From contig JAACMV010000022.1 of the NCBI GenBank assembly GCA_010909725.1, forward strand, positions 682,001 through 746,000: a stretch of 64,000 nt of DNA, given 5' to 3'. The stretch comes from Picochlorum sp. 'celeri'. Taxonomy: Eukaryota; Chlorophyta; Trebouxiophyceae. A program made the position numbers and the translations under genes. The notes beneath the pieces are model-generated. The model made no database searches and was not told where the DNA came from. It saw only the letters and a program-made list of their open reading frames with translations. This document shows positions 1 to 44,047 of this stretch, one piece after another; the first letter of the stretch is position 1, and every line of letters begins with the position of its first letter.

Positions 1-544
1 TATTTCGATCATTGCAATAGTCTACTTGTTTTGCCTGAGTTGCCTGGGCACACTGCATCAATCCAGCCAACATTTGACCAGTTTGACTGCAATCATCATC
101 CACAGATTGCTTTCCAAGAAAGATTACATCACATGCTTTCATTTGAGCCACATGAGATAGTATTTTCGCAACCTGTAGCTGTCTCAGTGGCTCTTCAGCC
201 AATACGTGCACTGCCTCATCTACAGAACCCTTGGACAAGCCTGTCCTCAACACTTGGACAGCGTCCGCATCACCCACAGTCACAATGGTCACACCACTAA
301 ACACTTTGGATTCCTTTAATCTCAGAGCCTCTTCCAGAGCAATATCACAGAAAGGATTCAAAGCCCACGCGACTTGAGAAAGATCCAAAGAACCCTGCAT
401 GTAATCAATAAGGCCTTCATCCCTCTTCCTCAACACTCCAATCCAAATCAGTATCAGACATACCCCATCCTTATGTACTCGAACGATCGAGTTGTAATCC
501 GGAACTCGCTTCAAGGCAACAAGGGCTCTTCGAAGAAATGACAT
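1..544 (-). CDS. ETFB: Electron transfer flavoprotein beta subunit (partial, C-terminus off window)
   Basis: ETF-beta pairs with ETF-alpha in the mitochondrial matrix and passes electrons from acyl-CoA and other flavin dehydrogenases to ETF-ubiquinone oxidoreductase. The first exon (464-544) starts MSFLRRALVALKRVPDY, matching the family N-terminus. A 69-nt GT-AG intron (395-463) is removed in phase 0. Exon 2 reads SQVAWALNPFCDIALEEALR, then the conserved signature GKQSVDDDCSQTGQM that binds AMP/FAD. About 155 residues of a roughly 250-residue protein are present; the gene runs off the left edge. It is divergent from the Prp43 gene. The start is the only ATG preceding the conserved LKRVPDY block. 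Identification is firm; cofactor and partner come from family knowledge. Confidence 0.9.
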   Translation of the reverse strand, partial: MSFLRRALVALKRVPDYNSIVRVHKDGVCLILIWIGVLRKRDEGLIDYMQGSLDLSQVAWALNPFCDIALEEALRLKESKVFSGVTIVTVGDADAVQVLRTGLSKGSVDEAVHVLAEEPLRQLQVAKILSHVAQMKACDVIFLGKQSVDDDCSQTGQMLAGLMQCAQATQAKQVDYCNDRN

Positions 545-3437: not shown

Positions 3438-3684
3438 CAAAAGTCATCTTCACTGGTCTATTGAGTACGCATCAATTGACATAACCCACAATGTAAATCC
3501 CCAAACCAGGAATTCCAAATTTGCAAACAACAGGCTCGAATGGAGATTGGATCGGCCTGCCATCTCCCTGTGCCGGATGAGGCAACGAGGGTATTCGAGT
3601 ATCAGTTCAGAAAGCTTGCATGGACACCAGAGAACTCGATTAAATACAAGATAATAAACCTGGTTGATCGAACTCGGCAGTAAG

Positions 3685-5171
3685 ATGAGTAGTGTACTGA
3701 CTCAATCAAAGCACGCCTGCTTCTGCAGTCACTTTCGCAGACAACCAAGTATGTGCCGGATATTTTGGATATAATACAATCCATGTACTCACGTTATATC
3801 AAAAATGCAGATAAGCAATTGGGAGCGTCTTTGAATCGCAATAAACAGTTATGGCAGCGTATTTCAGAGTCCCGGGACGGTTTGGTTACAGCTGCAGTTT
3901 CCTCTGAAACTGGATCATATGGTGTCTTCACTCTCAACTATGAGGCTGACAATGTGCGTGATATGATTGAGACAGCAGGTGGTTTTCGACTTTCACCGGT
4001 TCTTACTGTGTGGCCATTTTTTGTAGGAAGATCCAAGGTTGACCAGCACGTGGAAAAAGACTATGAATGTTGTAGTCACAGGAGCTGCCGGGCAGATTGC
4101 AAACCATCTTCTGTTTATGATTGCGTCAGGAGAAGTTTTTGGTAGAGATCAGCCAATTGCTCTTCACCTGCTAGGCTCTGAACGTTCCAGAGAGGCAGTA
4201 GAGGGAGTTGCAATGGAACTGGAGGATTCTCTTTATCCCCTTTTGAGACAAGTGATCATCGGAACGGATCCTTACAAGGTGTTCAAGGATGCCGATTGGG
4301 CTATTCTGATCGGTGCCAAGCCACGAGGTCCTGGTATGGAGCGAGCAGACTTGTTGGACATTAATGGTCAAATCTTTCAGGAACAGGGCAAGGCCATCAA
4401 TGAGGTTGCAAGCAGGAACTGCAAGATGATGGTCGTAGGAAACCCCTGCAACACAAATGCAATGATTGCAATGGAAAATGCACCTGATATTCCAAGAGAG
4501 AACTGGCATGCTTTGACAAGACTGGATGAGAACAGGGCAAAATGCCAATTGGGACTAAAGGCTGGAAAGTTCTACACATCTGTTACAAATATGTGTGTTT
4601 GGGGAAATCATTCCACATCACAAGTACCGGACTTTGTCAATGCCAAAATCGGGGGAAAGAGAGCTCCCGCAGTTATCAAAGATACACAGTGGTTGAAAGA
4701 AGAGTTCACACCTACTGTTGCCACAAGAGGTGCAGCTTTGATCAAGAAATGGGGAAGATCCTCTGGAGCATCAACAGCTGTATCTATTGCTGATGCACTT
4801 CGATCCCTTTATACACCAACTCCTGAAGGAGATTGCTTCTCAAGTGCTGTCTGCACTGATGGAAATCCATATGATCTGGAAGGTACGAACTCTCATTCTC
4901 TCTGTCTATTATCATTATCTATATCTGATTCATGTATCGCTTATCATTTTTTGTAGAGGGTCTTATTTTCAGTATGCCATGTCGATCAAATGGCGATGGA
5001 ACATACGAGGTGATTGACGATTTTGTGATCGATGATTGGCTCAGATCAAAGTTGGAGGCAACCCAGCAGGAATTGATTTTGGAGCGCGACTGCGTTGGCC
5101 ACCTGATTCCAAATTCTTCCAGAGCAGTGTGTACTATCAAAGAAGACACAATGTTGCCAGGAGAGAATTAA
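3685..5171 (+). CDS. Chloroplast-type NADP-dependent malate dehydrogenase
   Basis: Reduces oxaloacetate to malate with NADPH in the stroma (the malate valve that exports reducing power). Exons 3685-3748, 3811-3953, 4027-4882 and 4957-5171 join in frame to 425 residues, near plant enzymes. Seen: Rossmann start [14 protein letters not shown], substrate loop [34 protein letters not shown], catalytic His in [12 protein letters not shown], and the family end EDTMLPGE. The C-terminal redox pair (Cys400, Cys413) is present. The N-terminal pair of land plants is replaced by Ser57 and Thr62 in SYGVFT. A Ser/Arg/Lys-rich leader fits a transit peptide. Intron 1 is inferred from GTATGT...GCAG and restores the frame, so the start is less certain than the body. 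It lies just downstream of Prp43. Confidence 0.92.
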
Positions 5172-5795: not shown

Positions 5796-6396
5796 ATCAA
5801 TTTCTATTAGTATTACTCCTCAGATACATTGTTTCAATCGTGTTCAATCCAGAAATGAACAACTGAATCTCAGAACTCCTGACTGCTCGTAAGTGCGCCA
5901 GTCCGATTCATCGAAGAGGTGCAAAAAATCACACTAATAATACAAATAATGCTTATTTTTGATACACTTGTTGCATAGGTGAAGGAAAGACTCGCGAGAC
6001 CAGTGTATGGCAAATGCAAATGGGCATAGGGCGCCCCAGGCCTGGGGCCTAGGATATCCTAGGATTTGAGTGCCCCGGGCCGGCCCGGGGTCCCGGGGCC
6101 AATCGGCCAATTCCTGTATCTTTTGAAAATAGTACCATAGAAGGACAAAGTGTGTTAAACAAGAATAGTTATTTCATTTCATTGATTTAATTGGAATTGA
6201 GCGATCGCATGCGGCATTCTATGAGGTTGCCAGAAACGAGCAACTTGAAAGAGCTCTTCCCCGGCAGTTGAACAATCTTTGACCGGTTGTTGGCGAACAA
6301 TATACATAGTTTTAGCCCCTATCTGTACATTAAACGACTATCAAGGACTATTGAAAGCCATTTATCGATTGACAGTGGACATTTGTTGACCAATCC
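5796..6396. other. Intergenic region with a palindrome cluster
   Basis: About 600 bp between a minus-strand and a plus-strand gene start, so it should hold both promoters. Apart from the GC-rich palindromes at 6033-6090, listed separately, it is AT-rich. No coding sequence or RNA gene is recognisable. Confidence 0.5.
6033..6090. repeat. Three adjacent perfect palindromes
   Basis: Within 58 bp lie three perfect inverted repeats without spacers: GCCCCAGGCCTGGGGC (6033-6048), CCTAGGATATCCTAGG (6048-6063) and CCCCGGGCCGGCCCGGGG (6073-6090), followed by another CCCGGG. Each can form a hairpin or a dimeric protein site. The block is far richer in GC than its surroundings. It lies in the divergent promoter region. 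Candidate explanations are a clustered DNA-binding site, a transcription boundary or a recombination remnant; the sequence does not decide. Confidence 0.7.
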
Positions 6397-8481: not shown

Positions 8482-8776
8482 ACTGTATACTAGAATATAC
8501 TTGACGCATCATATGTGACCAGTGGGTTGCACATCCAAAACTGGAATAGGAGACTTCCGGATGCATGCATCGCTGCATGGGAAGACCCCGAGAGAGCGCC
8601 TTGGACGAACCTGATTTCCAAACCCTAGACAAGAGAAGGACAGAAAGGGCTACAAGTACATTATTTGAACAAATTAAATATATGAAAACAAATTAAAAGG
8701 ATCTGTAAGATTTGAAAGGATTCTACTTGATACGAGAAACGAATACACGTAGCGCCGTCGATACCCTCGATCACAG
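8482..8776. promoter_or_regulatory. Upstream region of the GOGAT gene
   Basis: 295 bp without coding sequence, between the beta-trefoil gene stop and the GOGAT start. It should contain the 3' end of the first and the promoter of the second. No clear core element stands out. Confidence 0.4.
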
Positions 8777-11700
8777 ATGCTCGAAACAAGTTTAACGAGC
8801 ATGCTCGGACCCGTACGAGCTCCTTGTCGACTGCAAAGTAGACAAAATTGTAAAAATATTGGACGGAAGTTAGGGTTTGTTCGATTTAATGGTCTGAAGG
8901 GAGTTCGTGTGACCAGATCCGCATGGAGTTCCGGAAAGCCCTCGACTCTTTGGGGCAGGAAGGGTCGCTCTATGGCAACAGTACGTGTTCTAATTTAATA
9001 AATTGTATAAAATTTACTCTCGAAGTTTTGAGACATGTATTCCAACCTCGTTCAGGTGTACGCAAAACACAGTGAGGTGCCAGAGTCACAAGGGCTTTTC
9101 AATCCCTCGAACGACAAGGATGCTTGTGGGGTTGGGTTTGTCGCGGAACTGTCAAAAGTACCAACTCGAAAGACTGTGACAGATTCTTTGGAGATGCTCG
9201 TGAGAATGCGGCATCGAGGTGCCTGTGGATGTGAACCCAACACTGGGGACGGTGCCGGTATCCTTGTGGCGATTCCACATGACTTCCTGGTGCATGAAAT
9301 CGAACAATCCAGTGCATTTGTGCTACCTAAAAGAGGAGAGTATGGGGTCGGTATGGTCTTTCTTCCGACGGATCCCGAGCAGTATGACAGCGCAAAGTCT
9401 GCATTAAGACGGGTTGTTGAATCTAGAGGTCACACGATGCTTGGGTGGAGAACAGTGCCAACGGATAGCACCGGCCTTGGAGAAGGTGCTCTCAGGACCC
9501 AACCAATCATTGAACAATTCTTCATCACTGAGAGTGACAAGCCAAATGGCAAAACTATTGAGCAGCAGATGTTTGTACTCAGGAAATTGATTGAACAGGG
9601 GTGGAGGGTTGCAGGTTTGACTGATGATGATGCATACATGTGTTCTTTGTCTTCTGAGACAGTGGTGTATAAAGGTCAACTTACTCCGGAACAGGTTGAA
9701 GGCTTTTTCTTGGATCTTCAGAGCCCAATGTTTACATCCTATGTGGCATTGGTGCACTCTAGATTTTCCACAAATACATTCCCAGCTTGGCACAGGGCCC
9801 AGCCAATGAGAATGCTTGGACACAATGGTGAAATCAATACACTTCGGGGAAATGTGAATTGGATGAAGGCAAGACAAGGAGTGATGAGGTGTAACTCTTT
9901 GTCTGTAACTGAGAGAACTTTGCAAAAGCTGCTGCCAATCATACCTAAAGAGCAGTCAGATTCTGGTTCATTTGACTCTGTCTTGGAATTGCTTGTTCGC
10001 AGTGGTAGAGACTTGCCGGAAGCTATGATGATGTGTATTCCAGAAGCATGGCAAAATGATCAGCTAATGTCCCAGGAAAAAAGAGACTTTTACAAGTTCC
10101 ATTCTTGTATAATGGAGCCATGGGATGGGCCAGCACTGGTGGCTTTCACAGATGGCCATTTCATTGGAGCAACCCTTGACAGGAATGGACTCAGGCCTGG
10201 TCGATATTATATCACAAAAGACAAGAGGGTTGTGATGGCATCTGAGGTAGGAGTTGTCGATATTCTGCCTGAAAATATTGAGAAGAAGGGAAGGCTCATG
10301 CCAGGCAATATTTTCCTGGTAGACTTCGATTCTCATGCTGTGATCGATGATAAAGAATTGAAATACAAGTATGCAACTTCAAGGCCTTATGGAGAGTGGG
10401 TTGAGAAGGAAACTGTTCGTTTGTATGATGTTGTCAAGAGTGTTCCTCATCCTATCAAACCTCCAGAGATTCAAGGTGCAAATGTCCAAGGGAATGGAAG
10501 TGGACCTCCAAAAGGGATCCAAAAGCTTCTCTCACCTTTAAAGGCTTTCGGATATACGACTGAGACGATTGATAAAATCCTGCTGCCAATGTCGTCTACA
10601 GCAGCAGATCCCCTGGGATCAATGGGAAACGATTCCCCCTTGGCAGTAATGAGTGACAGACCCAAACTGCTGTATGAATATTTCAAACAACTGTTCGCTC
10701 AGGTCACAAATCCTGCTATAGACCCTCTGAGAGAGAAATTTGTTACTTCTATGAGAAGTATGATCGGTCCAGAAGGGGATATTACAGAAACTCAGGAGGA
10801 TCAAGCTCATCGTTTGGATTTGCCGCATCCATTCCTGAAGCCAGAGGAAATGGAGGCTATCAAGAGGATGCAATTCCGAGGCTGGGCATCAAAGACAATA
10901 GATATCACTTGGCCTATCAGTGAGGGGCCGAAAGGCATCACTGCTGCCCTGGATAGAGTGTGTGCAGAGGCAGCTTTGGCTATTGAGGATGGATTTGATT
11001 TTATTGTTCTCTCTGACAGGGAAGCCAACCATTCAAGAGCGTCCATGAGTGCATTGATGGCAGTTGGAAGAGTTCATCATCACCTTGTACAGCTGCAAAA
11101 ACGATCTAGAGTCGGCCTGTTGGTTGAAACAGGAGATGCAAGAGAAGTCCACCATTTCTGCTTGTTACTTGGCTTTGGTGTGGATGCCATTTGTCCATAT
11201 CTTGCAATGGAAACAGTTGTTGGACTGCAGCAGGATGGCTTGATTCAGCAGTCATCATCAAGGGATGAGATAATTGATAGATACATTAAAGCAGCCAGAG
11301 ATGGTGTTGTCAAGGTGATGGCAAAGATGGGAATTTCAACAGTTGCATCCTACCGTGGTTCCCAAATATTCGAAGCCGTGGGTCTTGGGGATGAAGTTAT
11401 CAATAGTTGCTTCAAAGGAACTTCATCGAGGATTGGTGGGCTAGGATTTATGGAATTGGCAAATGATCTTCTCGATCTCCACAAGGTAGCTTATGGTAGT
11501 CACTATGAGAGCAACGTCTTGCCCAATCCTGGATCTTATCATTTCAGGTCGACATCTGAGAACGAAGCACACCTGAATTCTCCCTTGGCAATCGCAAAAC
11601 TTCAGGAAGCTTCTCGAGAGGGCAGTATTGCCGCTTACAAGGAGTATTCGAGATTGACCCAAGAACTGAATCGCAAGGTGAACATTCGAGGCATGCTGAA

Positions 11701-14700
11701 GTTCAAACCATCTCCCACAGGGCCAATTCCAATTAGCGAGGTCGAGCCTGCTTCGGAAATTTGCAAAAGATTTGTGACGGGAGCAATGTCTTATGGGTCC
11801 ATTTCTCTCGAAGCTCACACAACCTTGGCGATCGCAATGAATTCCATCGGAGGAAAATCAAACACTGGAGAGGGAGGAGAAAATCCTCGACGGCTTGTGC
11901 CTAATGAGGATGGATCAAGGAACCCTATGAGATCCTCCATTAAACAAGTGGCCTCTGGGCGTTTCGGTGTTACAGCAAATTATTTGACCAATTCTGACGA
12001 GATCCAAATCAAGATATCTCAAGGTGCAAAACCTGGAGAGGGTGGTGAACTTCCTGGGACAAAGGTCAAAGGTGATATAGGTAAGTAGAATCTTTGTTGT
12101 TTGAACGTTGATGCTGATTTACACCCGTAACAAATTTTGATCTGATATTTGTCTGCAGCAAAAACACGAAAGTCTACACCTGGAGTGGGACTCATTTCTC
12201 CCCCACCTCATCATGATATTTACTCCATCGAAGATCTTGCACAACTCATCTATGATTTGAAGAGCTCCAATCCCGATGCTCGTATATCAGTCAAACTTGT
12301 GAGTGAGAATGGTGTAGGTGTCGTCGCATCTGGTGTTGTGAAAGGCCATGCAGACCATGTCTTGATCTCTGGCCATGACGGAGGAACTGGGGCTGCCAAA
12401 TGGACATCAATCAAGAATGCTGGACTCCCTTGGGAGCTTGGGCTCGCAGAAACACATCAGACTCTCGTAGCTAATGATCTCAGGAGTCGTACTGTTTTGC
12501 AGGCAGACGGTCAGATGAAGACAGGAAGAGATATTGCAGTAGCTGCCTTGCTTGGTGCTGAGGAGTTTGGATTTGCGACTGCTCCTTTGATAACCATGGG
12601 GTGTATCATGATGAGAAAGTGCCACACAAACACTTGCCCAGTAGGTGTTGCTACTCAAGATCCTGTGCTGCGCGCCAAATTTGCAGGCGAGCCGGAATAT
12701 GTCATCAACTACTTGTTCATGGTTGCGGAAGAAATGAGAGAATATATGGCAGAGATGGGATTCAGAACTGTGACAGAAATGGTCGGTAGGGCTGATATGC
12801 TTGAGGTCGATGAGGAAGTCATTCAGGAGAATCCAAAGTTATCAGGTGTCGATCTCTCAAAGATGTTGATTCCTGCCGCAACAATTCGTCCAGAGGCAAA
12901 ACAAACATGTCACATAAAGCAGGACCACGGATTGGATACTGGATTGGACCCAGAACTGATTTCTTTATGCAAAGCTGCGCTTCCAGATGATGGAAGCCCA
13001 GCAGAGAGTGTCAAAGTCGAGACCAAAGTATCTAATGTGAACCGGGCTGTCGGCACAACTTTGTCACACGAAGTGACAAAGAGATTTGGGGAAGAAGGCC
13101 TTCCATCGGATACGATTCACATCAAGCTGGAGGGGCATGCTGGACAATCCCTGGGTGCCTGGCTGTGCCATGGAATCACTATTGAGCTTGAAGGGGATGC
13201 AAATGATTATGTCGGAAAAGGCCTTTCAGGTGGTCTCATTGCAGTGTATCCTTCAAAGAAGTCATCATTCGCCCCCGAGGAGAACATAATTGCTGGAAAT
13301 GTCTGTTTGTATGGTGCTACAGCAGGTGAAGCTTACCTCAGTGGGGTAGCAGCAGAGAGATTCTGTGTACGTAATTCTGGAGCTCAAGCTGTTGTTGAAG
13401 GCGTGGGTGACCATGGATGTGAGTACATGACAGGGGGAACCGCAGTCATTTTGGGCAAGATAGGGAAAAACTTTGGAGCTGGAATGAGTGGAGGGCTTGC
13501 ATTTGTCTACGACCCATCTGACACCATGCATTCGCTATGCAATGTAGACATTGCACAAGATCTCTATCCAATTGTTGAACAAGAAGATATAGACACATTG
13601 CACGGTTTGATCAGCAACCATCTGAAATTCACAGGATCACCCATTGCCCAGAGAATCCTGGAAAATTGGAAAGAGACTCTTCCAGCTTTCAAGAAAGTGT
13701 ACCCAAGAGATTACAAAAATGCCTTGGAGGAACAAAAGAGGATTGAGAGTGCACAAAAAGAAGAGAAACAGCTCATGTCCCAAATGGTACCAGGAGAAGA
13801 TGCCTTTGACACTCTCAGAAAAATGGCCAAAAGTATTGTCGACGATGGTGCCAAACTTAGCACCTCTCCAAGAAGAATTGTCTCACCGCCCACACCGAAG
13901 TTGTCAGCTGATCTGAAGGAGGAGTACGACCGTCTTCTCAAAGATGCATCAAGTGGCCTTCCTGTAGCAGGGAGGGAGCCAGTTTGGGATACAGAGAGAC
14001 CCAGAATTGTACAAAATGGCGAGACACAAAAGCAGGGAGGATTTATGAGATATGAGCGTGAGCCTTTACCTTATCGTCCGGTGGATGAGAGGTTGAAGGA
14101 TTATCACGAGGTACTTGCTCCATCGGCAAATGGAACAAACTCAGATCTCTTGAAAACACAGAGTGCCAGGTGTATGGACTGTGGTACCCCGTATTGCCTC
14201 AATAAGGAAACTGGATGTCCACTTGGAAACCTGATTCCAGAGTGGAATACACTGGTCTGGCAAGGAAGGTGGAAAGAGGCAGCGGACAGGTTGCTTGCTA
14301 CAAATAACTTCCCTGAATTTACAGGCAGGGTCTGCCCGGCTCCTTGTGAAGGCTCTTGTGTCCTCGGAATTAACCAGAATCCAGTCACCATTAAAACCAT
14401 GGAAGTCTCGATCATTGATAAAGCATTTGAGGAAGGCTGGATAGTTCCACGACCCCCAAAGACAAGAACTGGAAGACGAGTAGCTATCATTGGCAGTGGT
14501 CCTTCAGGAATGGCAGCAGCTGACCAGTTGAACAAGATGGGTCATGCTGTGACAGTGTTCGAAAGAGCGGATCGTATTGGGGGATTGATGATGTATGGTG
14601 TACCAAATATGAAAACTGGCAAGAAGGAGATTGTTCAGAGGAGGGTTGACTTGATGGCCGACGAGGGCGTCAAATTTGTTACAAATGCATCCGTGGGCAA

Positions 14701-15605
14701 AAATGTGGATGTGAAACTTCTGAAAGCTGAATCTGACGCAGTCATTCTTGCTGCTGGTGCTACCAAGCCAAGGGACTTGCCCATCGAAGGAAGGGAGTAC
14801 AGTGGCATTCACTTTGCGATGGAATTTCTGACTGCCAACACGAAAAGCCTGCTTGACTCGAACCATGCAGATGGCAAGTACATTTCAGCCAAAGGCAAAC
14901 GTGTTGTAGTCATTGGTGGTGGTGACACAGGAACAGATTGCATTGGTACAAGCTGTGAGACATGGGGCAACCGAAGTAATCAATCTTGAGCTCTTAAGCA
15001 AACCTTCAGACACGAGATCTGAGAGTAACCCTTGGCCATACTTCCCACGAGTATTCAAGGTTGACTATGGCCATGCAGAGGCATCCCATGCCTTTGGTAA
15101 GGATCCAAGGGAATATGACGTTCTCACAAAACGATTCATTGGAGACGAAAATGGAAATCTGAAGGGTATTGAGATCGTTGATGTTGTCTGGACGCCACCT
15201 CAGAATGGAGGAAGGCCTACATTTGAAGAAGTGGAGGGAAGCAGCAGGATCATTGAAGCAGACCTGATATTGCTAGCTATGGGATTCTTGGGACCAGAAG
15301 AAACCCTCGCAGAGGCTCTGGGCATTGAGTGTGATGAGAGATCAAACTTCAAAGCCCAGTATGGTAACTTTGCCACGTCAATAGATGGAGTATTTGCTGC
15401 AGGAGATTGCCGCAGGGGCCAGTCCCTCGTTGTTTGGGCTATCGCGGAGGGCCGTGAGGCAGCTGATTCTTGTCACAAGTATCTGATGGCTAAGGATGCA
15501 TCCTTCCCGGATGGTACAGATGAATTCACAGGAGGGGTGATTGATCTGGACACATTTGAGAGCACAGGAGGACTGTTGGGAGCCTCTGGTGCAGTAGCAG
15601 CATAA
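8777..15605 (+). CDS. NADH-type glutamate synthase (GltB-GltD fusion)
   Basis: Converts glutamine plus 2-oxoglutarate to two glutamates; it refixes ammonia, including that from photorespiration. Exons 8777-8980, 9056-12080, 12159-15605 code about 2,224 residues. A basic leader (transit peptide-like) precedes the class-II glutaminase domain, whose nucleophile is the Cys in KDACGVGF. Then come the FMN synthase domain, the 3Fe-4S loop ([11 protein letters not shown]) and the GXGXG beta-helix ([22 protein letters not shown]). The GltD part has 4Fe-4S cysteines (CMDCGTPYC...TGCPLGN), FAD site [14 protein letters not shown] and NAD site [12 protein letters not shown]. The fused GltD part marks the NADH form rather than ferredoxin-GOGAT. 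One extra base at 14951-14957 shifts the frame after DCIGTS; coding resumes at [13 protein letters not shown]. It converges on HPR with 19 bp between stops. Confidence 0.95.
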
Positions 15606-15624
15606 ATTGTAATTACATGTACAT

Positions 15625-17029
15625 TTAAGACATTTTCAAATTCAATTCCTTTGCATTGACAATAGATGGGGCTGCCTTTGGAATAGATTCAAATGGTCCG
15701 TCAACAAAGCCCAATACATCTGGCTTGTTCCACACTGGATAATCCTGCAAAATTGCAGCAACATTGCTTGCTGCCAGTGTTGCCATGCCAGACCTTGTCC
15801 ATTGCGTCGCAGACGCAATATGAGGGACAATGACAGCATTCTCACACTCTTTGAGCCCTGGCTTCATCAATGGCTCGTCTTCGAAAACATCCAAACCGAC
15901 TCTGAACTCTGGATTTTTTCTTCAAGTGAGCAACCAAGGCAACCTCATCAATGACAGGTCCACGTGCTGCATTTACAAGCACTGCATTGGACTTCATCAT
16001 ATTCAATTTCTCTTCATTGATCAAATGTTTGGTGTTTTCATCCAGGTTACAGTGCAGACTGACGACATCCGACACCTTCAACACCTCCTCCACAGTACCA
16101 CAACGAGTCACTGTGATCTCATCCCCACCTTTGCTCTGCACCAACTTGGAGTAATCTTTGACATACTCCTCCAAAAATTTGTTCTCATACGGATCATAAT
16201 ACACAAGATTCATCTTATGCCCTTCCACCATCATTCTGGCATACGCAGTACCAATCCTTCCTGCACCAATGATGCCCACAGTTTTACCCTGTAAAAGGTT
16301 TCCGACAAAAAGAGTTGGAAGCCATCCCTTGTACTTTTCAGCCCGCATAAAGCTATCTCCCTCTACAACTCTTCTCGCAGCAGCAAATGTCAACGCTGCT
16401 GCAAGCTCAGCAGTCGTCTCCGTCAACACCCCTGGAGTATTACCAACTGGAATACCGCGAGCAGTTGCCTCTGGAACAACAACATTGTTATACCCTACTG
16501 CATAATTACTGAAGCCCTTCCACCCGCTTTCTTCAATGCTTCAAACAATTCACTTCCCCAGTCTTCCGTAAGCTGCCCAATCACTCCATCACAAGAGTTC
16601 CCAATCAATTTCACAATAGTGGCATTATCCAGAATTGTCTCTGGAGACTGAGAGATTTCAACTCTGCACCCAGCAGAGGCCAAAATCTGCTTCCATCGAT
16701 CCCCAGGAAGATTTTTTGTCACAATCACTCTTTTGGCCCCTTCTGGATTCACAACCTGTGATCAAACGGTACAATGTCAGAACAGATTCCCAGAAAGCCC
16801 CAGTAGTAGACTCCTACAACGATCCCGCCAACACCCCACCAAACCCGCATCGATTCCCACAATGCTACCCATAAATATATAGATCAGCATTTCATATAAA
16901 AAATCATACCTCCACCGGGATCCCATTGACCGTTTCTGTAGCCATTGATCGCACCGACTGGACACTCAACCCAAGGTTTTGTCTCGTAGATGCTGCTGTA
17001 CGATACAATGCACGTGCGATTCTGTTCAT
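15625..17029 (-). CDS. HPR1: Hydroxypyruvate reductase (HPR1-like D-2-hydroxyacid dehydrogenase)
   Basis: Reduces hydroxypyruvate to D-glycerate with NAD(P)H, the penultimate photorespiratory step. Exon 1 is 16910-17029, a 154-nt intron spans 16756-16909, and the rest runs to 15625. The leader MNRIARALYRTAASTR is amphipathic, suggesting mitochondrial import (as in algae); an alternative ATG lies at 17095. Conserved HPR1 blocks: CDGVIGQLTEDWG, VGYNNV, NTPGVLTETTAELAA, nucleotide site GIIGAGRIGTAYARMM, and catalytic Arg (NAARGPVIDE), Glu (LDVFEDEP) and His (VPHIASATQW). Two frame breaks sit in homopolymers: one base missing at 16511-16515 and one extra T in the run 15914-15919. All catalytic residues survive, so I favour consensus errors over decay. 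It is divergent from the LOV gene. Confidence 0.9.
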
Positions 17030-17164
17030 GATGAATACAACACGAATAATGTTTTTTAAAAACAGTGTCGATATCCCCATCGCTGATGTGGACATTTAAG
17101 CAGCGGTCCCTTCCGAGCGAATTCTCTATTCTATTTATGTAAGGAACTTTTTTACGCTTGGTGG
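17030..17164. promoter_or_regulatory. Bidirectional promoter between HPR and the twin-LOV gene
   Basis: Only about 135-200 bp separate the starts of the divergent HPR and LOV reading frames (exact size depends on which ATG each uses). One control region must therefore serve both. No TATA-like box stands out. Co-regulation is inferred from the spacing. Confidence 0.5.
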
Positions 17165-18259
17165 TTGGACAATGTGTTTTACTTGGCGACACTTCGGATA
17201 TGTATTCTGTTTGAATATTGTTGTGATGGAGAGTGTTTTGAATCGTTTGGACTGAGTTTTGTAATCTCAAATCCACGCGAGCAGGACAATCCAATTGTGT
17301 ATGCCTCAGAGAACTTTTACAAGACAACAGGATACTCTCCAAAAGAAGTCATTAACCGAAATTGTCGGTTTTTACAAGGTAAAGATACATCCCGACAGAG
17401 TGTGTGCGAGATTCGGGATGCCATTCGGGAGGGAGCGAGCTACGTCGACGTGTCTTTTGAATTATAGAAAGAATGGTACCCCATTCTGGAATGCTTTTCA
17501 TCTAGAACCTGTGAAAGATGTTCATGGGATGACGGAATTTTACATCGGGGTCCAGGTCGATGTCACGGAGATGTTCAAGAGTGCTTTGGGAGAGGCTGCT
17601 GTGTCTGAATGTTCAAAGGATGTGTGTAGTAAGGCACAGCAGTTGGCGGATGAGGGTGAAAAAGTATGCCGACAAGCTTCATGAGAATGCGCGTGTTAGT
17701 GTAGCTGTTGCTGACTCTATACCGAGTCCTCTTCTGTCAGGTTTGTCAACAATCAATCATGCATTTTGTTTGACGGATCCCAGCATCCCGGGTAATCCAA
17801 TGGTATATTGTTCACCTGGGTTTTTACATATGACGCGGTATTCGAGTTCGGAGTTGATTGGAAAGCCGTGCTCAATGCTGCAAGGGGAATTGACAGATCA
17901 GAAAGAGGTGGAGAAAATCCGGATGCTATTCATCATGAGCCGCCTCGGCCAGTATCGGCTTGTTTGGTGAATTATAGAAAGGATGGAGAGGTATTTATGA
18001 ATTCTGTTCATATTGCAAACCGGTGAATTGCTCATCAGGAAAGGTGAAGTACTTCTGTGGAGTTCAAAGTGAGGTTCCAATGAATGTAGATGAGGGTTGT
18101 AAGACGAGCAATCCATTGGTATTATTGAAGCAGAAGGGAGTTATAGGAGCTGTGCGAGTGGCGGCTCGGGGACTTGCCGATTCGGGGCTTGTGAGAAAGC
18201 CAGATCATCAAGTGCCATGCAAGAGTGTTCTGAATCCTGATAAATTAACGGAGAAATGA
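17165..18259 (+). CDS. Twin-LOV blue-light receptor protein (two LOV/PAS domains)
   Basis: LOV domains bind FMN and form a flavin-cysteine adduct in blue light. LOV1: SFVISNPREQDNPIVYAS, TGYSPKEVINRNCRFLQG with the adduct Cys, LLNYRKNGTPFWN, FYIGVQVDVTEM. A helical linker follows. LOV2: FCLTDPSIPGNPMVYCS, GKPCSMLQG (Cys and Gln kept, Asn/Arg/Phe replaced), CLVNYRKDG, KYFCGVQSEV. A short C-terminal tail ends LNPDKLTEK. No kinase, bZIP or other output domain is seen, so it resembles plant PAS/LOV (twin-LOV) proteins of about 350-400 residues. Frame breaks of one base occur near 17450-17457, 17659-17663, 17919-17922 and 18015-18020, perhaps also near 17255. The start is uncertain: ATG 17226 (MESVLNRLD) fits if a base is missing at 17255, otherwise 17165. 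Confidence 0.8.
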
Positions 18260-18340
18260 TGCGTTCGTGTAAAATAGATGTAGATGATTAAACGAATAGA
18301 AATGAAAATTTAGCATAGAAAAAAAAAGGATTCCTTGTCT

Positions 18341-21300
18341 CTATGAGGAAGAGGAGGTTTCTTTTGGTTTTGGCTTTGTTGCTTCATCAACGAGGTACAC
18401 AAGTCCTCTAAAGTGCATTCCTGAATGGTTACTCAGAGACATTTCGCACGTTCTCGACGTAGAATATCCATCAGAACATCCTGCGACGTTGAGGTGCTGG
18501 AGGGAGGACGAGGTCAATTCTGGGTACCTCATTCCCCTGTCACCCGCCATACCACAGCATGGAATGTTGGATGGAACCACCTCATTGGCACACATGGATG
18601 CTACCTTCATGAACGACTCCTCAATGCCCATTTCTTTGAAGAACATGGAACATGGATGGCTACAGTATCCCTGACCTTTGAGAAGTCCAATTTATCGAGC
18701 ATGAAGTGCCTGATAAACTCAACTGGTTCATACAGGGAGAAACGCAATGCTGGGTCAGACAAACCGGATTTGATCTGAGCCAAGCATGGCGATGTGTCGC
18801 ACACGATTGGGTACTTTCCATTATCTGATGCTTTAAGCAAAGCTGCCTCGAGTTCAGATCCCTTCTTTGCTGCTGCATCCTTGAAACCTCTGCTGTTAAA
18901 CATCATACCACAGCAGGATGATGACAATCCCTCAGGATAAACCACCTCATACCCTCCTTTTTGGAAGATTGACAACAGCTTCTCATGCACACTTGCATTT
19001 TCCGTATCGTTCTTAGCTGGTCCCATGATTCGTGTCACACAGGCAGGAACATATACCACCTTTCTTGGGATGCCCTTCTCAGCTTCAACCGAGACCTCTG
19101 GAGCAGGTGGATTCATGTTCAATGGAGATGCAGCCTTTGGCATGTATGGGTTCCATTCTGGTACCATGTGTCCTGAAATCTTATCAATGCTCTGGAAATA
19201 GTTTGAAGAGGCCATGGTCCGAGAATTTGATGGGCCACATTGACAGCCCCAAGGAGTTTGTTAAATGTCCAGCTGTTGCTCCAAAGTTATTTGCAACCAT
19301 ATCAGCCACCTTGCTTGCCTTTGGCATCTCATCCATTGCTTCGCTTCTGATATGTTTCACTAATTCACCTGTGTTGATCTTCACGGGGCATTTCTCCTTG
19401 GCACATACCATCAGCGGCACATGTATCAATTCCATCGTACTCGAAAGTCTTTGACATTTCGGCAAGTCTTTTTTCTTGCTCTGGCGTCCTGGATGGGATC
19501 GACTTCAATCGATAAATTCCTTGAATACAGCAATGCGCTGTCTTGGCGTCAAAGTGAGATCCCTTGATGGACAGTTGCTCTCACAAAATCCGCATTCAAT
19601 ACAACGTTCACGAGCTTGCTTGCTGTTGGGGGATGGCTTCAAATTCTTCACATGCACCATAGCATCCTCATTCAAAATTACGCCAGGATTCAGCACATAA
19701 TCAGGGTCAAAGATCTCCTTCAGCTCCCACATCAATTCAGTTGCCTTGGCACCCCACTCCATCTCAACATATGGGGCCATGTTTCTACCAGTTCCGTGCT
19801 CTCCTTTCAGAGATCCTCTATGCTTCACTGCAACAATGTGGCACATTTCATCCATCATGTCCTGGAAACGCTTCACTTCTTCTGGTGTACGGAACCCTTG
19901 AGAGAAGACAAGGTGCAAGTTTCCTTCGAGTGCATGACCAAAGCAGGACGCATCATGGTATCCATGCTTTTCAAACATTTCAATGAGATCCATAGTCATG
20001 TCACCGAGCCTATCAGTTGGGCATGCAACATCCTCCAGAAGCATCGTCGTTCCATCCTCTCTCGCTCCTCCAACAATAGGAATGAGACCCTTTCTCACAT
20101 CCCAGTACACCTTGGCATCCTTTTGGTCGTGTTTAAACTCATATGCATCTAAAGATGTCTCCTTGCCAGGAGCAGGTCCAAATGGAAGCTGAGATCCTTC
20201 CAGCGCTACTCGAATCTCCTCAATACGAGCCTTCAAATCTTCTTCAGTCTGACCTCTGCATTCAATCAATAGAGCTGCAGCCATTGGGCCACACCCATCA
20301 ATATCTGGTACCAGGCGAGTCATGTCTTCATTCCCAGCACACTCCCTCAATGAAGCCCTGTCGAACATTTCTACAGCATCTACAGATGTTTGAGATCTAA
20401 GGACAGCAGCTGCTTGGCAGGCGGCCTTCACATGAGGGAACATGACGAATGCAGATGCCTTATTTGGCCACTCTGGCACAGTATTGTAGGTCACCTGTGA
20501 CACAAATCCCAATGTTCCTTCGCTTCCAATGATCACTCTCTTGATAATCTCAATCGGATCATCTATTGGAAAATCAACCAAAGCGTTCAAAGAATACCCA
20601 GTCGTGCACTTGATGGCAAACTTTCTGCGAATAAGAGAAGCCAATTGCTTATCCGACTGCACCCTCTTGGCCAAGTCCACCACCTTGCTCACCAAATCAG
20701 CATGAGACTTCAAAAATGCCTGCCTACTTTCCTCGCTCGATGTATCCAACACAGTACCATCAACAAAAACCACCCGGAGATCCTTCAACGTGTGATATGT
20801 ATTCTGTGATACACCGCAGCACATTCCAGAGGAGTTGTTTGACACAATGCCTCCAATCATGCATGAATCGATAGATGATGGATCTGGACCAATTTTATAC
20901 TGTACTGGAAGCTTATTCTTGATCTTGTGCTGTGCCAAAATCCTATTCACCTCACCCCCAATCAACCCAGGCTCGACGGTAATGCTGCTTCCATCCCCAT
21001 GAACTGTGAAATTCCTAAAATTCTTACCAGTGTGTGAAATCTTCACCAAAACAGAATCCGTCAAAGCCTGGCCAGACAAAGATGTACCGGCAGCCCTGAA
21101 TGTAATAGGAACCCCATGCTTCTTAGCAATCGGCAACAGCTTGATCGCCTCCTCCTCCGAATGCATCTTGACCACCAACTTTGGATTCAAACGATAAAAA
21201 CTCGCATCTGTCCCATACGCAAAAGTCCTCACCGGATCCGTGAATTGCCTTGTCTTGGGCACAAACTCTGAAATCTCCTCGATAAATGCGGCATACCTCC

Positions 21301-21677
21301 CATCTTCAATTCGACGCCCATCCATGTTTTCAAATGCCGTCACCCTTGCGATCAAGCTCGTGAGGCTCTACAATGGAAATAGCCCCAACCTCATCAATTC
21401 GAGTCAATGGTAACGCAGAAGGCTCAACCTTGGTCTCTACCATCTGTTGCGCAGCTGGTTGCGATGCTGCTGGTCGGGTTTGCTGAAAGCGTCCATGTCC
21501 ACCACGGAATTCCTCAAAGTTCTCCAACCCCTTCTTTCCCTTGCCCTTACTCACCAGACCTCGAGTACTGGTATTCAACAACCCATATGCATTGTTATCA
21601 GTAGAAACACTACCACCAGCGCCCCTTTTGGTGACAACAAGATTGTCCAACACGCGTGACACAAGGCGTCGTCTCAT
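18341..21677 (-). CDS. Glycolate dehydrogenase-like GlcD-GlcF fusion (FAD plus 4Fe-4S)
   Basis: Oxidises glycolate (or D-lactate) to glyoxylate (or pyruvate) and passes electrons to the respiratory chain in mitochondria. An Arg-rich leader (MRRRLVSRVLDNLVV) precedes the FAD-binding domain (AYGTDASFYRLNPKLVVK, FRAAGTSLSGQAL, GGIVSNNSSGMCCG) and FAD-oxidase C domain (HALEGNLHLVFSQG, RGSLKGEHGTGRN). Then a ferredoxin-like pair (CIECGFCESNCPSR; DTCAADGMC...CPVKINTGEL) and two CCG cysteine motifs (SSSCCGMMF; IPCCGMAGDRG). Total about 1,000 residues. Frame breaks: near 19511-19517, 19396-19401, about 19240, about 19195 and about 18640, plus 21304-21343, where a 40-nt GT-AG micro-intron could equally restore the frame. 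Glycolate rather than D-lactate as substrate is inferred from the SGAT and HPR neighbours and similarity to the Chlamydomonas-type enzyme. Confidence 0.85.
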
Positions 21678-22073
21678 GGTATTACGACACTATGAAATCA
21701 ATCAAATCAGTCTTAATGGAATATAAATGAAATACCATCAATGGCATTGCCAGGGTCTGGGAGTGTCATAGTCAAAATCTCCCATCTGGATATCACCAAT
21801 ACTGGGGGTGGCGCCTTGTTCGTAGTAGACTAGTCTTCGTAGTAGAGTACCCTGTCCTTTGGTTCATCTCCAGGGCACGTACTACAAGCATCGTTGGTAT
21901 CAACGGATGGCAGATACAATTACCTCTGATTTTGATATCTGAGAATTTAATAGAGTATTACTACGAGAAGAAGGGTCTCCTACCACGAACATATTGTATT
22001 CTGTCATACAGGCAAGGGTCTTTGTTGAAGCCAGATACAGTAACAAACACTACGACGAGTAATATCCGTGACG
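21678..22073. promoter_or_regulatory. Bidirectional promoter between glycolate dehydrogenase and SGAT
   Basis: 396 bp separate the two divergent start codons. It contains a direct repeat TTCGTAGTAGA at about 21819-21829 and 21836-21846 (17-bp offset) and a related inverted GTACTAC at about 21879-21885. These are candidate binding sites for a regulator shared by both genes. The region has no coding sequence. Role inferred from position. Confidence 0.5.
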
Positions 22074-23506
22074 ATGATGTTGAGACAGTCTCGTAAAGTA
22101 TCAAAGATTGTTCAGAGGGCAATGAGCTCTATGCCGGCCTTTGCGGAGGAGGTGTGTCGATGTTGGTGACATGTGACATGTATTGGTGGTTTCTAAACCT
22201 CGTGGGTTTTGGGGTGTGGTGCTGATCAAATATCTGTTTTTGAATATAGGTTGCTTCTGAAGCAAAGAAAACCTCCACGAGGGCACCATTTTCGTATGAA
22301 CCTCCTGGGAGGAACCACTTGTTCGTTCCAGGTCCGGTGAATATTCACGACAATGTCTTGAGGGCTATGCATGTGGGTGGCCAGAATCACCGCGATGCTT
22401 GGTTCCCAGAGTTTTACAAGACGTGTTTGGAGGAGAGTAAGATGATCTTTGGCACGACCAAGGGTACTCCAATCTTCTGGCCTGGTACTGGAACTGGTGG
22501 GTGGGAAGCTGCTCTGACGAATACGCTTTCTCCAGGAGACAAAGTCGTGACCTTCAGATATGGACTCTTCTCTCATCTCTGGATTGATATGATGCAGCGC
22601 CTCGGACTTGATGTGGAGGTGATTGACTGCAGATGGGGAGATGGAGCTGATGAGGAGCGTCTTGCAGAAGTATTGAAGGCTGACACTGAGAAGAAGATCA
22701 AGGCTGTGTGTGTCGTTCATAATGAGACCACTACTGGTGTGACATCAGATATTGGTCATGTGAGGACGACGATGAATGAATTTTCTCATCCAGCAATGCT
22801 TTTGGTTGACGGTGTGTCTTCCATTGGAGCATTGGACTTTAAGTTTGATGAGTGGGGTGTTGATGTGGCCGTCACTGGTTCTCAAAAGGCACTCTCTCTT
22901 CCAACTGGTTTGGCTGTGGTGTGTGCTTCTGAGAAGGCCATTGCTGCGAGCAAGACTGCGACATCCAAGAGAGTGTATTTTGACTTTGCTGATATGCTTA
23001 GAACAAATCCATCTGGCAATGTGCCATACACACCAGAGCTTCAGATGTTGTATGGCCTCAGGGAATCTTTGAAGATGTTGAGAGAGGAAGGTATGGAGAA
23101 TGTCGTTGCACGTCATCACCGCTTGGCAGAGGGAACCCGTCGCGCTGTGGCTGGATGGGGTCTGGAGACACTCTGCAAAAACCCACGCTGGTACTCTGAC
23201 TCTCTGACTGTGATCGAAACTCCTGAGGGGATTGATTCACAGAAGATTGTAGATATTGCGTACGCAAAGTACAACATGTCTTTGGGCATTGGATTGGACA
23301 GAGTCAAGGGCAAGGTGTTCAGAATCGGACACCTTGGAAACATGGATGAAATAATGCTGAGTGGAGCCCTTAGCGGCGTCGAATTGGCCTTGAAAGATGC
23401 AGGTGTGCCAATTACTCTTGGAAGCGGTGTCTCCAAGGCCATGGAGTACTGGAGCGAGACAATGGAGGTCATCCCAACACGGGAGCACTTGGTGCAAGAA
23501 GCCTAA
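22074..23506 (+). CDS. SGAT: Serine-glyoxylate aminotransferase
   Basis: PLP enzyme that transfers the amino group of serine to glyoxylate, giving hydroxypyruvate and glycine in photorespiration. Exon 1 (22074-22151) encodes a basic leader MLRQSRKVSKIVQRAMSS, like a mitochondrial presequence. A 98-nt intron precedes exon 2 (22250-23506); total 444 residues. Motifs match plant AGT1: LFVPGPVNIHDNVLRAM, GTGTGGWEAALTNTLSPGD, VHNETTTGVTSDI, LLVDGVSSIGALDFK, PLP lysine in TGSQKALSLPTGL, LGIGLDRVKGKVFRIGHLGN. It has no frame break. It is divergent from the glycolate dehydrogenase gene, whose product supplies its substrate. The first of two adjacent ATGs is used; 22077 is equally possible. Confidence 0.93.
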
Positions 23507-23549
23507 TATGAAATGATTTTCTCCTCGATTTTGTACAAAAATTATACAT

Positions 23550-24347
23550 TTAATACGATGAACCTCGATTATTTTCCCATATATCATCAATCACTCCAAA
23601 GTCTAGTGGCTGGAGGTCAGGGGCACTGTGGTCATCTGTCACCATGTATGCATCTTCATCCTCTGATTCCTCATCTTCTTCATCCTCCTCGAAATCTATG
23701 TAGGGTTCTTCATCATTAAAATCCCGTCGTAATTGTACAGCCTGACCAAGAACGTGTCCAAGAATCTGGGATGTATCATCCACCATGTCCAAGGACATTG
23801 AATGGATTATAGGAGGAATACCAACATCATACAGCACTTGAACAATCTCCAACTGATTTAGTTGCCTACATACAATAGTAGTCCATCCTGAATTATACGC
23901 TTGTACCGGACAGGTGAATAAAAAGCATAGCAACACGTACGGAATATTTTGAAACAACAAAACCCTTTCCTGTCCCCACCCACCTCCGTCTATCCAATCA
24001 GGAGGTATTGGACTCGACCAGTCTGGCTCAGAGCCTTCCTGAAAGACCTGTTGAACAGGTGTATATAGCAAATCAGAGGAACACACAATCATTTCAATGG
24101 CATTGCCACCTGCCTCATCGAGTGCCATTCGAATAATTGGCATCTCGGCTACCAAAAACCCAGCCAAAACCATACCCATTTTACCATCATTTTCATAATG
24201 ATCGTATGTGCTGGATCGTATGTGGGATTTAGAGATGTATAAATTCTTCGGTGGAGCGAAAGCGAATGCATTCCTCCCATGCGGACGTGTATGCTGCCTC
24301 CGAGATGCTACATACCGATGATAGCACGCGAAAGAGGTAGAAGACAT
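23550..24347 (-). CDS. DUF3783-like protein, probably plastid-targeted
   Basis: Function unknown. A Ser/Arg-rich leader (MSSTSFACYHRYVASRRQ) suggests organelle import. The core reads MGMVLAGFLVAEMPIIR, then ERVLLFQNIP...LNQLEIVQVLYDVGIPP, the pattern of DUF3783 proteins found in plant chloroplasts and some bacteria. A 75-nt intron (23866-23940, GTACGT...TGTAG) is very likely; it is stop-free and a multiple of three, so the unspliced frame is also open (265 codons), but splicing restores the DUF3783 block. The C-terminus is strongly acidic (EEDEEDEESEDEDAY). Stop codons of this gene and SGAT are about 45 bp apart, tail to tail. Confidence 0.7.
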   Translation of the reverse strand: MSSTSFACYHRYVASRRQHTRPHGRNAFAFAPPKNLYISKSHIRSSTYDHYENDGKMGMVLAGFLVAEMPIIRMALDEAGGNAIEMIVCSSDLLYTPVQQVFQEGSEPDWSSPIPPDWIDGGGWGQERVLLFQNIPYVLLCFLFTCPVQAYNSGWTTIVCRQLNQLEIVQVLYDVGIPPIIHSMSLDMVDDTSQILGHVLGQAVQLRRDFNDEEPYIDFEEDEEDEESEDEDAYMVTDDHSAPDLQPLDFGVIDDIWENNRGSSY

Positions 24348-26816: not shown

Positions 26817-26875
26817 ATACAGTGTAACACATGGATTTTTATTACAAATCATAAATGTTTGATACATAAATATAT

Positions 26876-28199: not shown

Positions 28200-28566
28200 T
28201 GACTTCCACAGCAGTCCCCTTGCTGAGCATCTCCTGATCCCGAGGATACCAGTTTGATCTCTTAACCAGTGTTCCAACCAAGCTGCAAAAGGCATCACAC
28301 TAAAGTCTCTCTTGGGGTGCCTTGGCTGAAGGCACCACTCGTTAGACTTTTCCTTTACCAAGCTGGCTTGATTTTGGTATAGTTGAAGTCGTCCACGGTC
28401 TTGATGGACATGGAAGATTGTGATATATGTATGTGTATGTTTTGAGTGTCAGTTATCTGACGTTGCGATGTTGTTTGCGGGAGGTGGTTGGTATGGTGGT
28501 GCATCTGAGAGGTTGTTGGGTCCCGATGGCGCCTCGGGGTCCTGACCTCATTCCCCATGGCGCCGG
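28200..28566 (-). repeat. Internally deleted repeat copy R2
   Basis: Direct continuation of R1 in the same orientation. It matches the unit from its 3' end through the coding tail (KIKPAW region), then jumps near 28427 to the unit's 5' flank, losing roughly 690 bp including most of the coding head. The junction lies at a short TATGTGTATGT stretch, as expected of microhomology-mediated deletion. The outer edge falls in the CCATGGCGCCGG motif. Confidence 0.75.
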
Positions 28567-28808
28567 TTGTGTTAGTTAGTCTATCTTTGAGTAAATCTTT
28601 AGTTCAATTTTAAATTTGAATACAATCAAGTGTGAATGATAAACATGCACTTAAGGTTTAGATGTCAATGCTCAAACCTTGCAATGTGCATTCAATTTTG
28701 TTTTGACCTGCATCTTTTCATTAGCCACAATTATATCGACAAGGGGCTGTTCTGTGGATCTTGTTCTTGAAATCCTCAAATGTTGGATGTTGAGTGCAGA
28801 TACTATCA

Positions 28809-32272: not shown

Positions 32273-32355
32273 ATCGCGTATTTAATCGTATGCTGGTTTC
32301 TATCAGAAATCGAGTATGTATATTCTGTTGCAAAATATGAATACCTGTAAACATT

Positions 32356-33354
32356 TTAATTCTTCACCTTGTCAGCAGGAATGAGGCCAACATTTTTCAA
32401 AATGCCAACAGCAGACTTGTCTAAATTCAAAGTATACATGTGCAAGCCTGGCACTCCAGCAGCAAGGAGCCTCTGGCACATTTGTGTCCCAAGAGACACA
32501 CCAAACGCTTTGACAGCCTCATCATTGTCTTTGATGGTTTCAAGCACATTTGTGATATGCTCTGGCACATACGTCTTGCAGAAGCTTGTCATGCGCTTAA
32601 ATCCACCATAGTTCATTATAGGCATGATGCCTGGAAGAATTGGAACATTGATGCCAGCAGACTTGCAATCAGTCACAAACTTGAGAAACAAATCAACATC
32701 ATAAAAGAGCTGTGTGATCACAAAGTCAGCACCGGCTTCAACCTTCTTCTTCAGATAATCAATGTCTTCCCAATACTTCTTCTTCATCTCCTCTGGATCG
32801 TCTACAATCTGATCTGGATGTGCTTCTGGGTACCCACTCACACATATTCCAAAGTAATCTCCATGCTTTTCGCGAATATACTTGACCAAATCCAGAGCAC
32901 ATGCAAATCCTCCTTCTACTTGTGTAAACTTGTCCTCTCCATGAGGTGGATCGCCCCGCAAAGCGAGGATGTTTCTGATCCCTGCTTCTTTGCACTGCTG
33001 TAGGGCCGCCTCGAGCTTTTCAACAGGCATATTCGTGCATGTCAGATGCATCATAGTCTCCGCTTGAACCTATACAGCGTCAGTAATTCATTTAATCTCA
33101 CTCACGTGGGATTATGCAGTCAATAGATGACCTACCTCGTTCTGCATCTTCTCGGCAATTGTCAGAGTCAGGTCTGCTGTCGACCCTCCAGCACCCCATG
33201 TGATGTCACAGAACAATGGATCCAGGGATTTCATATATATCTGACGCTGATGAAGGTTTTTGACACCTTCATCGGTCTTTGGAGGAAAGTATTCAAACGA
33301 GTAAAATGTCTCTCCATTATCAATTTTCGAGTTGATCTTCTCTATGATCTTCAT
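32356..33354 (-). CDS. MTHFR: Short methylenetetrahydrofolate reductase (catalytic domain only)
   Basis: Reduces 5,10-methylene-THF to 5-methyl-THF with a flavin cofactor. Exons 33136-33354 and 32356-33069 (66-nt intron) encode 310 residues. Motifs match eukaryotic [18 protein letters not shown] (33 first-exon codons in), [92 protein letters not shown]. The protein ends shortly after [18 protein letters not shown]. The roughly 300-residue C-terminal regulatory domain of plant, animal and fungal enzymes is missing, and only 83 bp separate this stop from the next gene, so it cannot be hidden downstream. No leader is evident; cytosolic by default. Confidence 0.9.
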
Positions 33355-33476
33355 CTTTGTCAATCTGAGTTTTAATATGAAATATAAATTATAATTCTAC
33401 GTTGAAATTGGTCAGTAATTGAAATAAGGGCATTGCATGCCATGTTGCATTATTGATCGAGTGGTGGTCAGCACCT

Positions 33477-34654: not shown

Positions 34655-34671
34655 GCTTTATACAGTCCCAT

Positions 34672-38928: not shown

Positions 38929-38969
38929 ATATTTATTTCATAGACATCGAGCATTTGAAATGAAAAATA

Positions 38970-43207: not shown

Positions 43208-44021
<814 letters not shown>

Positions 44022-44047
44022 TAGAATTACATGTAATTGATCAAAAT

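Follow-up and report, generated by a model that had tools for sequence, protein, structure and literature searches.

A probable gene cluster for mitochondrial photorespiration in the green alga Picochlorum celeri

Genes at the locus

The window analyzed here is a 64,000-nucleotide stretch of the genome of Picochlorum sp. 'celeri' (C22:682001-746000). It contains five contiguous genes that encode, in order, NADH-type glutamate synthase (NADH-GOGAT, plus strand), hydroxypyruvate reductase (HPR, minus strand), a protein with two LOV domains (twin-LOV, plus strand), a predicted glycolate dehydrogenase (GYD, minus strand), and serine-glyoxylate aminotransferase (SGAT, plus strand). A preliminary description made from the sequence had placed these five neighbors at 8777-23506, and this was confirmed by their families (GOGAT large subunit; 2-hydroxyacid dehydrogenase/HPR; two PAS/LOV domains; FAD_binding_4, FAD-oxidase_C, and 4Fe-4S domains; class-V aminotransferase), identities, and coordinates. 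The outer bounds, the ATG of GOGAT and the stop codon of SGAT, were read from the sequence. The GOGAT and HPR ends are 19 bases apart, the HPR and LOV starts 196, the LOV and GYD ends 81, and the GYD and SGAT starts 399, and no space for further genes was seen between the five genes.

Table 1 Features of the window and of the adjoining upstream piece L062 (C22:672001-682000). Coordinates without a prefix are window positions.
Feature	Position	Strand	Remarks
Malate dehydrogenase	L062	-	TIGR01772, 214 bits on one exon, cut-off 273
Alanine-aminotransferase-family enzyme	L062	-	3tcm 339 bits, 3ihj 296 bits (both named alanine aminotransferase 2)
AGXT-type alanine-glyoxylate aminotransferase	L062	+	2huf 398 bits, 1h0c 338 bits, versus 111 bits for 6pk1
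Mitochondrial carrier	L062		Mito_carr 125 bits
RraA-like gene	L062:8988-9736		just upstream of the window
ETF beta, 3' part	L062		5' part within the window
ETF beta subunit	1..544	-	Pfam PF01012, 64.5 bits; gene extends upstream of the window into L062
NADP-malate dehydrogenase, chloroplast type	3684..5171	+	TIGR01757, 565 bits on exon 4027-4953, cut-off 598; 5' end approximate
NADH-type GOGAT	8777..15605	+	large part and pyridine-nucleotide part in one gene; NF008730; Pyr_redox_2 at C-terminus
HPR, HPR1 type	15625..17029	-	PF02826; leader MNRIARALYRTAAS in exon 1
Upstream region common to divergent HPR and twin-LOV	17030..17225		196 bp; gene starts read from the sequence
Twin-LOV protein	17226..18259	+	two LOV stretches; PAS_9 twice
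Glycolate dehydrogenase GYD (predicted)	18341..21677	-	GlcD-like FAD and GlcF-like 4Fe-4S parts fused; 1111 aa
Upstream region common to divergent GYD and SGAT	21678..22076		399 bp; bounded by the gene starts
SGAT	22077..23506	+	two exons; leader MLRQSRKVSKIVQRAM
MTHFR	32356..33396	-	TIGR00677, 349 bits on 32356-33069; second exon read by eye; 5' part approximate

GYD is 71% identical over 1038 amino acids to Chlamydomonas CHLRE_06g288700, HPR 75% over 375 amino acids to CHLRE_06g295450, and SGAT 71% over 426 amino acids to CHLRE_01g005150, the loci given as GYD1 and HPR1 (PMC12174325) and SGAT (PMC8320531, Table 2), respectively. The PF01565, PF02913, and Fer4 domains of GYD lie on one chain, confirming the green-algal GYD1 architecture. 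Among the matches listed, public names of GYD relatives are split between glycolate dehydrogenase and D-lactate dehydrogenase; by family the protein is a glycolate dehydrogenase of the green-algal type, with glycolate as the predicted substrate. Several of the listed public matches of HPR, which is close to the Chlamydomonas protein CrHPR1, are named hydroxypyruvate reductase 1. Compared with solved structures, the SGAT protein gave its best score (488 bits) with the serine-glyoxylate aminotransferase 6pk1, which we take to be of plant origin, versus 113 bits with the AGXT structure 1h0c, presumably of human origin, and is thus closer to SGAT. The first long exon of NADH-GOGAT scored 942 bits with NF008730, below the cut-off of 1047 that applies to the whole protein.

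The leaders of HPR, GYD, and SGAT are rich in Arg and Lys and contain 1, 2, and 0 acidic residues, respectively, in the stretches counted, a measure of composition rather than the output of a trained predictor. The leader of the upstream AGXT-type enzyme is rich in Arg, and all four leaders are basic and acid-poor. No type 1 peroxisomal targeting signal (PTS1) was found at the C-termini of five proteins (GYD, HPR, SGAT, and the AGXT-type and alanine-aminotransferase-family enzymes) or of 10 listed relatives, PTS2 being outside the test. The basic leaders together with the lack of PTS1 agree with, although they do not prove, the mitochondrial photorespiration of Chlamydomonas, in which HPR1 has been localized to mitochondria (PMC8264790). 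The cluster enzymes of P. celeri are likewise predicted to be imported into mitochondria.

Several reading frames are shifted in the window: the order and coordinates of the genes held, whereas the frames of HPR, LOV, GYD, and the GOGAT end did not. HPR is broken near 15914 and 16512 and GYD by insertions or deletions (indels), both in the window copy only. In the other phase, exon 2 of HPR is open for 378 codons (L010:7625-8758) and GYD is open for 1115 codons, 1111 from the first Met (L011:338-3682). Toward its end, GOGAT runs into stops near 14990 in both phases, with indels between the phases at 14950 and 14994; the proposal that this end is intact in the other phase was tested and proved false. 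Twin-LOV also has frame breaks in both phases. Between the phases, window positions 7914-23679 (15.8 kb) contain no single-nucleotide polymorphisms (SNPs), against 69, or 1 to 16 per kb (about 0.9%), over the first 8 kb, and 21 indels, 19 of them single-base, fall at 14.9-21.4 kb. Because these are small indels without SNPs and the other phase is intact for HPR and GYD, we attribute the frame breaks to assembly or consensus errors rather than to pseudogenes. Those of GOGAT and LOV would also be consensus errors, in a stretch that is unphased or homozygous. The genome comprises 27.41 Mb in 30 contigs, and most family-search matches fell on contig pairs (C2/C22, C14/C18, C5/C20, and others), with a few weak or single matches having no listed partner contig. 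The Picochlorum celeri assembly is described as phased and diploid (2 phases of 15 scaffolds, 27.43 Mb, 46% GC) and as polished with long reads only (PMC7225527). A second SNP-free tract of the window (31936-45962; 14.0 kb) contains indels only, and both tracts look homozygous or unphased with residual consensus errors. As this second tract is likewise SNP-free, a homozygous tract was dropped as a peculiarity of the cluster.

The cluster is larger than the preliminary description had it, with related genes at C22:674-681 kb. There the alanine-aminotransferase (AlaAT)-family and AGXT-type genes are divergent with 330 bases between their starts. The AlaAT family includes plant glutamate-glyoxylate aminotransferase (GGAT), and family membership of the upstream enzyme would fit GGAT, a glyoxylate activity being putative. 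Per haploid set, the AlaAT-family search found the cluster locus, a weak match on C4/C30, and one other locus on C15/C27 (50% identity). The span of about 31 kb at C22:674.3-705.5 kb thus carries GYD, HPR, NADH-GOGAT, two malate dehydrogenases, a carrier, and up to three glyoxylate aminotransferase types. Scattered among them are the LOV gene, ETF beta, a helicase, an RraA-like gene, and two genes that matched no Pfam family. The carrier was considered as a counterpart of the plant glutamate carrier BOU, but this was rejected, the PDB search having given uncoupling and ADP/ATP carriers. Between the upstream and downstream halves of the cluster sit the RraA-like and ETF beta genes. The membership of ETF beta is uncertain; as a speculation, it might be the electron acceptor partner of a mitochondrial 2-hydroxyacid dehydrogenase such as GYD.

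The outer neighbors lie where they had been described: NADP-malate dehydrogenase ends at 5171, 3.6 kb upstream of GOGAT, and the near (3') end of MTHFR, at 32356, is 8.9 kb downstream of SGAT. Neither was supported as a core member. NADP-malate dehydrogenase is set apart from GOGAT by two genes without a Pfam match, and MTHFR, an unlikely cluster member, is set apart by about 9 kb of genes in which one Pfam search gave no match. A 702-codon open frame without a Pfam match (6373-8481) immediately precedes NADH-GOGAT.

Chance placement and linkage in other green algae

Chance placement was modeled with 13 loci (PGP, GYD, two AlaAT, SGAT, GDC-P, GDC-T, three SHMT, HPR, and two GOGAT) positioned randomly on the genome taken as one line of 13.7 Mb, in two runs of 2,000,000 trials per locus set. 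The locus set was drawn up after the cluster had been seen and the scan covered one pathway, and the following figures are therefore guides. In run 1, three loci fell within 6.5 kb in 363 trials, four within 10.5 kb in 5, and five within 28 kb in none. Run 2 (6.5, 10.6, and 28.2 kb) gave 405, 4, and 0 trials with 13 loci; 525, 1, and 0 with 14; and 1520, 24, and 3 with 20. The locus is a eukaryotic metabolic gene cluster in the sense of three or more adjacent non-homologous genes of one pathway gathered beyond chance.

Relatives were drawn from protein searches with GYD, HPR, and SGAT (the best 120 of 8000, 7888, and 7997 matches, respectively), and all statements on relatives refer to the matches thus listed. 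Linkage was judged from locus tags and from contigs of exactly equal size, which were taken as the same contig. Only rows with contigs of at least 10 kb were used (46 for GYD, 39 of 40 for HPR, and 37 for SGAT); the HPR row not used was P0126 (about 13.8 kb). Note that the contig of a row is the longest in a protein cluster and thus unequal sizes do not prove separation.

The GYD and SGAT tags are consecutive in Nannochloris 'desiccata' (g09647/g09646) and Chlorella vulgaris (005775/005776), and the GYD and HPR tags are two apart in Micractinium sp. CCAP 211/92 (007858/007856). Contigs of equal size were found for at least eight GYD-SGAT pairs (13,245; 51,067; 104,581; 323,881; and 444,206 bases; 1.93, 2.60, and 5.81 Mb), at least six GYD-HPR pairs (40,433; 170,221; 252,858; and 323,881 bases; 4.94 and 9.02 Mb), and at least four HPR-SGAT pairs (40,690; 323,881; and 552,609 bases; 4.10 Mb). 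One size (323,881) was common to all three genes and no pair was off by 1-50 bases. Nannochloris, Elliptochloris, and Symbiochloris belong, like Picochlorum, to the Trebouxiophyceae, as do Chlorella, Micractinium, Apatococcus, and Myrmecia. Linked pairs of the three genes were also found on metagenome contigs. A search for algal contigs hidden among viral contigs gave four pattern matches, none of which encoded a GYD relative. Judged indirectly from tags and contig sizes, the linkage is conserved in relatives, and, in answer to the synteny check proposed in the preliminary description, linkage was seen for pairs of GYD, SGAT, and HPR in other algae and in metagenomes.

Interpretation and prior work

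We consider the locus likely to be a conserved metabolic gene cluster that serves those steps of green-algal photorespiration which take place in mitochondria. Photorespiration salvages what is formed when Rubisco mistakenly uses oxygen. GYD would oxidize glycolate to glyoxylate, which would be converted to glycine by SGAT and, if the family functions hold, by the AlaAT/GGAT-type and AGXT-type enzymes. SGAT would also convert serine to hydroxypyruvate, which HPR would reduce to glycerate with NADH that malate dehydrogenase could supply, and NADH-GOGAT could regenerate glutamate. The proposal of a pathway cluster organized as divergent pairs is supported: AlaAT/AGXT, HPR/LOV, and GYD/SGAT have 196-399 bp between starts, from which a common promoter region is probable for each pair. 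Such regions would allow the genes to rise jointly under low CO2 or high light. We infer the enzyme activities, the co-regulation, and a selective cause of the linkage.

Several observations weigh against this interpretation. The pathway is only partly clustered: GDC-P and a second GOGAT, taken as the ferredoxin type, are on C14/C18, GDC-T on C15/C27, PGP on C3/C23, and SHMT at three places (C6/C28, C1/C21, and C2/C22), and a glycolate-oxidase-like FMN enzyme is encoded on C5/C20. In relatives, equal sizes of 4-9 Mb (Myrmecia, Apatococcus, Chlamydomonas, and C. sorokiniana) mean the same chromosome at most, and only GYD-SGAT is kept in Nannochloris, where the HPR tag is far off and the contig size differs. 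Sizes differ for GYD-SGAT in Volvox reticuliferus, Edaphochlamys, C. eustigma, Sanguina, Haematococcus, Scenedesmus NREL 46B-D3, and Auxenochlorella (different records), for GYD-HPR in Scenedesmus PABB004, for HPR-SGAT in Raphidocelis, Astrephomene, and Bryopsis, for all three genes in Pedinophyceae YPF-701, and for SGAT relative to the other two in Myrmecia. Chlamydomonas locus tags rise in steps of 50, and by locus names SGAT is on chromosome 1 whereas about 135 tag steps separate GYD1 from HPR1 on chromosome 6. In that alga GYD1 (there called GDH), HPR1, and SGAT1 are reported to depend on CIA5 and CO2 (PMC8320531); genes that lie apart are thus under common control, and linkage is not required for co-regulation. 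Finally, no promoter element common to the pairs emerged, as the one candidate failed. This was GAGTACCC, found near GTAGTAG in the AlaAT/AGXT and GYD/SGAT upstream regions; in sequences of this length about one common 9-mer would be expected. Genome-wide its pattern matched only the AlaAT/AGXT site, once per phase, and the candidate was dropped as a backward control pattern also gave two matches. The two halves of the GYD/SGAT copy overlap by one base, and the genome pattern therefore missed it.

Other 2-hydroxyacid dehydrogenases are located elsewhere in the genome. The nearest SHMT match (C22:582694-583934) shares a chromosome with the cluster, at a distance of about 90 kb, and contains one TGA in both phases, which may reflect an unspliced intron.

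Rather unlikely, in our view, is that the linkage is passive, an ancestral segment kept close by a very compact genome without selection for co-regulation. Chlamydomonas chromosome 6 carries GYD1 (Cre06.g288700), SHMT2 (g293950), AGT1 (g294650), and HPR1 (g295450) (PMC8320531, Table 2), and Picochlorum has its SHMT some 90 kb away from the cluster; together these positions point to a linkage group of old standing, and the dispersal of the remaining pathway genes also fits passive linkage. However, GYD-SGAT adjacency recurs in other genera although Chlamydomonas SGAT is on another chromosome, and chance placement is rare. The AGT1 and SHMT2 loci on Chlamydomonas chromosome 6, if orthologous, hint that an old, loose linkage group was tightened in the Trebouxiophyceae. 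It is somewhat short of an even chance that twin-LOV and NADH-GOGAT are incidental, the cluster being GYD, SGAT, HPR, and perhaps the upstream aminotransferases: relatives were compared for GYD, HPR, and SGAT alone, and the HPR-LOV upstream region may reflect only genome compactness, but in Micractinium exactly one tag number, seen as a number without its product, falls between HPR and GYD, as LOV does here. An assembly misjoin is very improbable. The SNP-free tract at 7914-23679 means that the phases are not independent there, but relatives of GYD (87%) and SGAT (91%) share an equal-size contig of 51,067 bases and the same links occur in other organisms. The two objections foreseen in the preliminary description, genes unlinked in relatives or a misjoined contig, are largely answered by the recurrent linkage of GYD, SGAT, and HPR pairs.

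A conserved photorespiration cluster is thus favored, and it is no first. A survey of ten green algae reports 317 gene neighborhoods and recovers five functional clusters reported earlier, including photorespiration (Foflonker et al. 2016, as cited by Foflonker and Blaby-Haas 2020, PMC7826186), and in Picochlorum SENEW3 functional clusters including photorespiration are described, some co-expressed under salinity stress (PMC12198440). A photorespiration cluster in Picochlorum and its green-algal conservation are therefore already in print. The SENEW3 cluster (Foflonker et al. 2016, Algal Research 16:465), known here through citing text alone, shares genus and pathway with the present one and very probably is the same locus; the photorespiration neighborhood of the survey (PMC7826186) was compared here without its member list. 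The photorespiratory genes described for Chlamydomonas (GYD1, HPR1, SGAT, AGT1, and AAT) resemble the cluster in the 71-75% identity of GYD, HPR, and SGAT, and have a mitochondrial HPR1 and CIA5 dependence; unlike in P. celeri, GYD1, HPR1, and SGAT are not tightly linked. In literature listings of open-licence papers, viewed mostly as listings, no further description of the cluster, the LOV gene, or the upstream extension was recognized.

Gene clusters of primary metabolism are better known from bacteria than from photosynthetic eukaryotes. The cluster, containing GYD, HPR, and as many as three glyoxylate aminotransferase types, seems to have been maintained in one algal class and to have become looser in another, and this makes it testable whether the linkage serves co-regulation. 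P. celeri is reported to be transformable (PMC11156908). The LOV protein and the mitochondrial carrier are candidates for algal photorespiration regulators and transporters.

The twin-LOV gene and repeats in the window

Both LOV stretches of the twin-LOV protein have phototropin LOV structures as their best matches. The usual LOV motif is NCRFLQ. LOV1 reads NRNCRFLQ and LOV2 reads GKPCSMLQ, so that Cys is present in both and LOV2 differs from the usual motif. The protein does not have the LOV1-LOV2-kinase arrangement of a phototropin, as no kinase follows LOV2 and the gene ends about 80 bases before GYD. A separate LOV-LOV-kinase frame of 738 codons, its kinase part read by eye, is on C5/C20. 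We think it improbable that the LOV protein, which would be expressed from the upstream region in common with HPR, is a sensor of blue or high light that sets the expression or activity of the clustered mitochondrial enzymes, and any role in photorespiration would be conjectural. Were it so, algae would have a light-anticipating control of photorespiration through a blue-light receptor within the cluster.

Two repeats were also seen in the window. Within 26869-28569, the part at 28.2-28.6 kb repeats segments of the part at 26.9-27.9 kb, which are 236 and about 155 bases long, with 84-98% identity. At 59080-62464, a tandem repeat whose unit measures about 1.3 kb gives off-diagonal matches between the phases.

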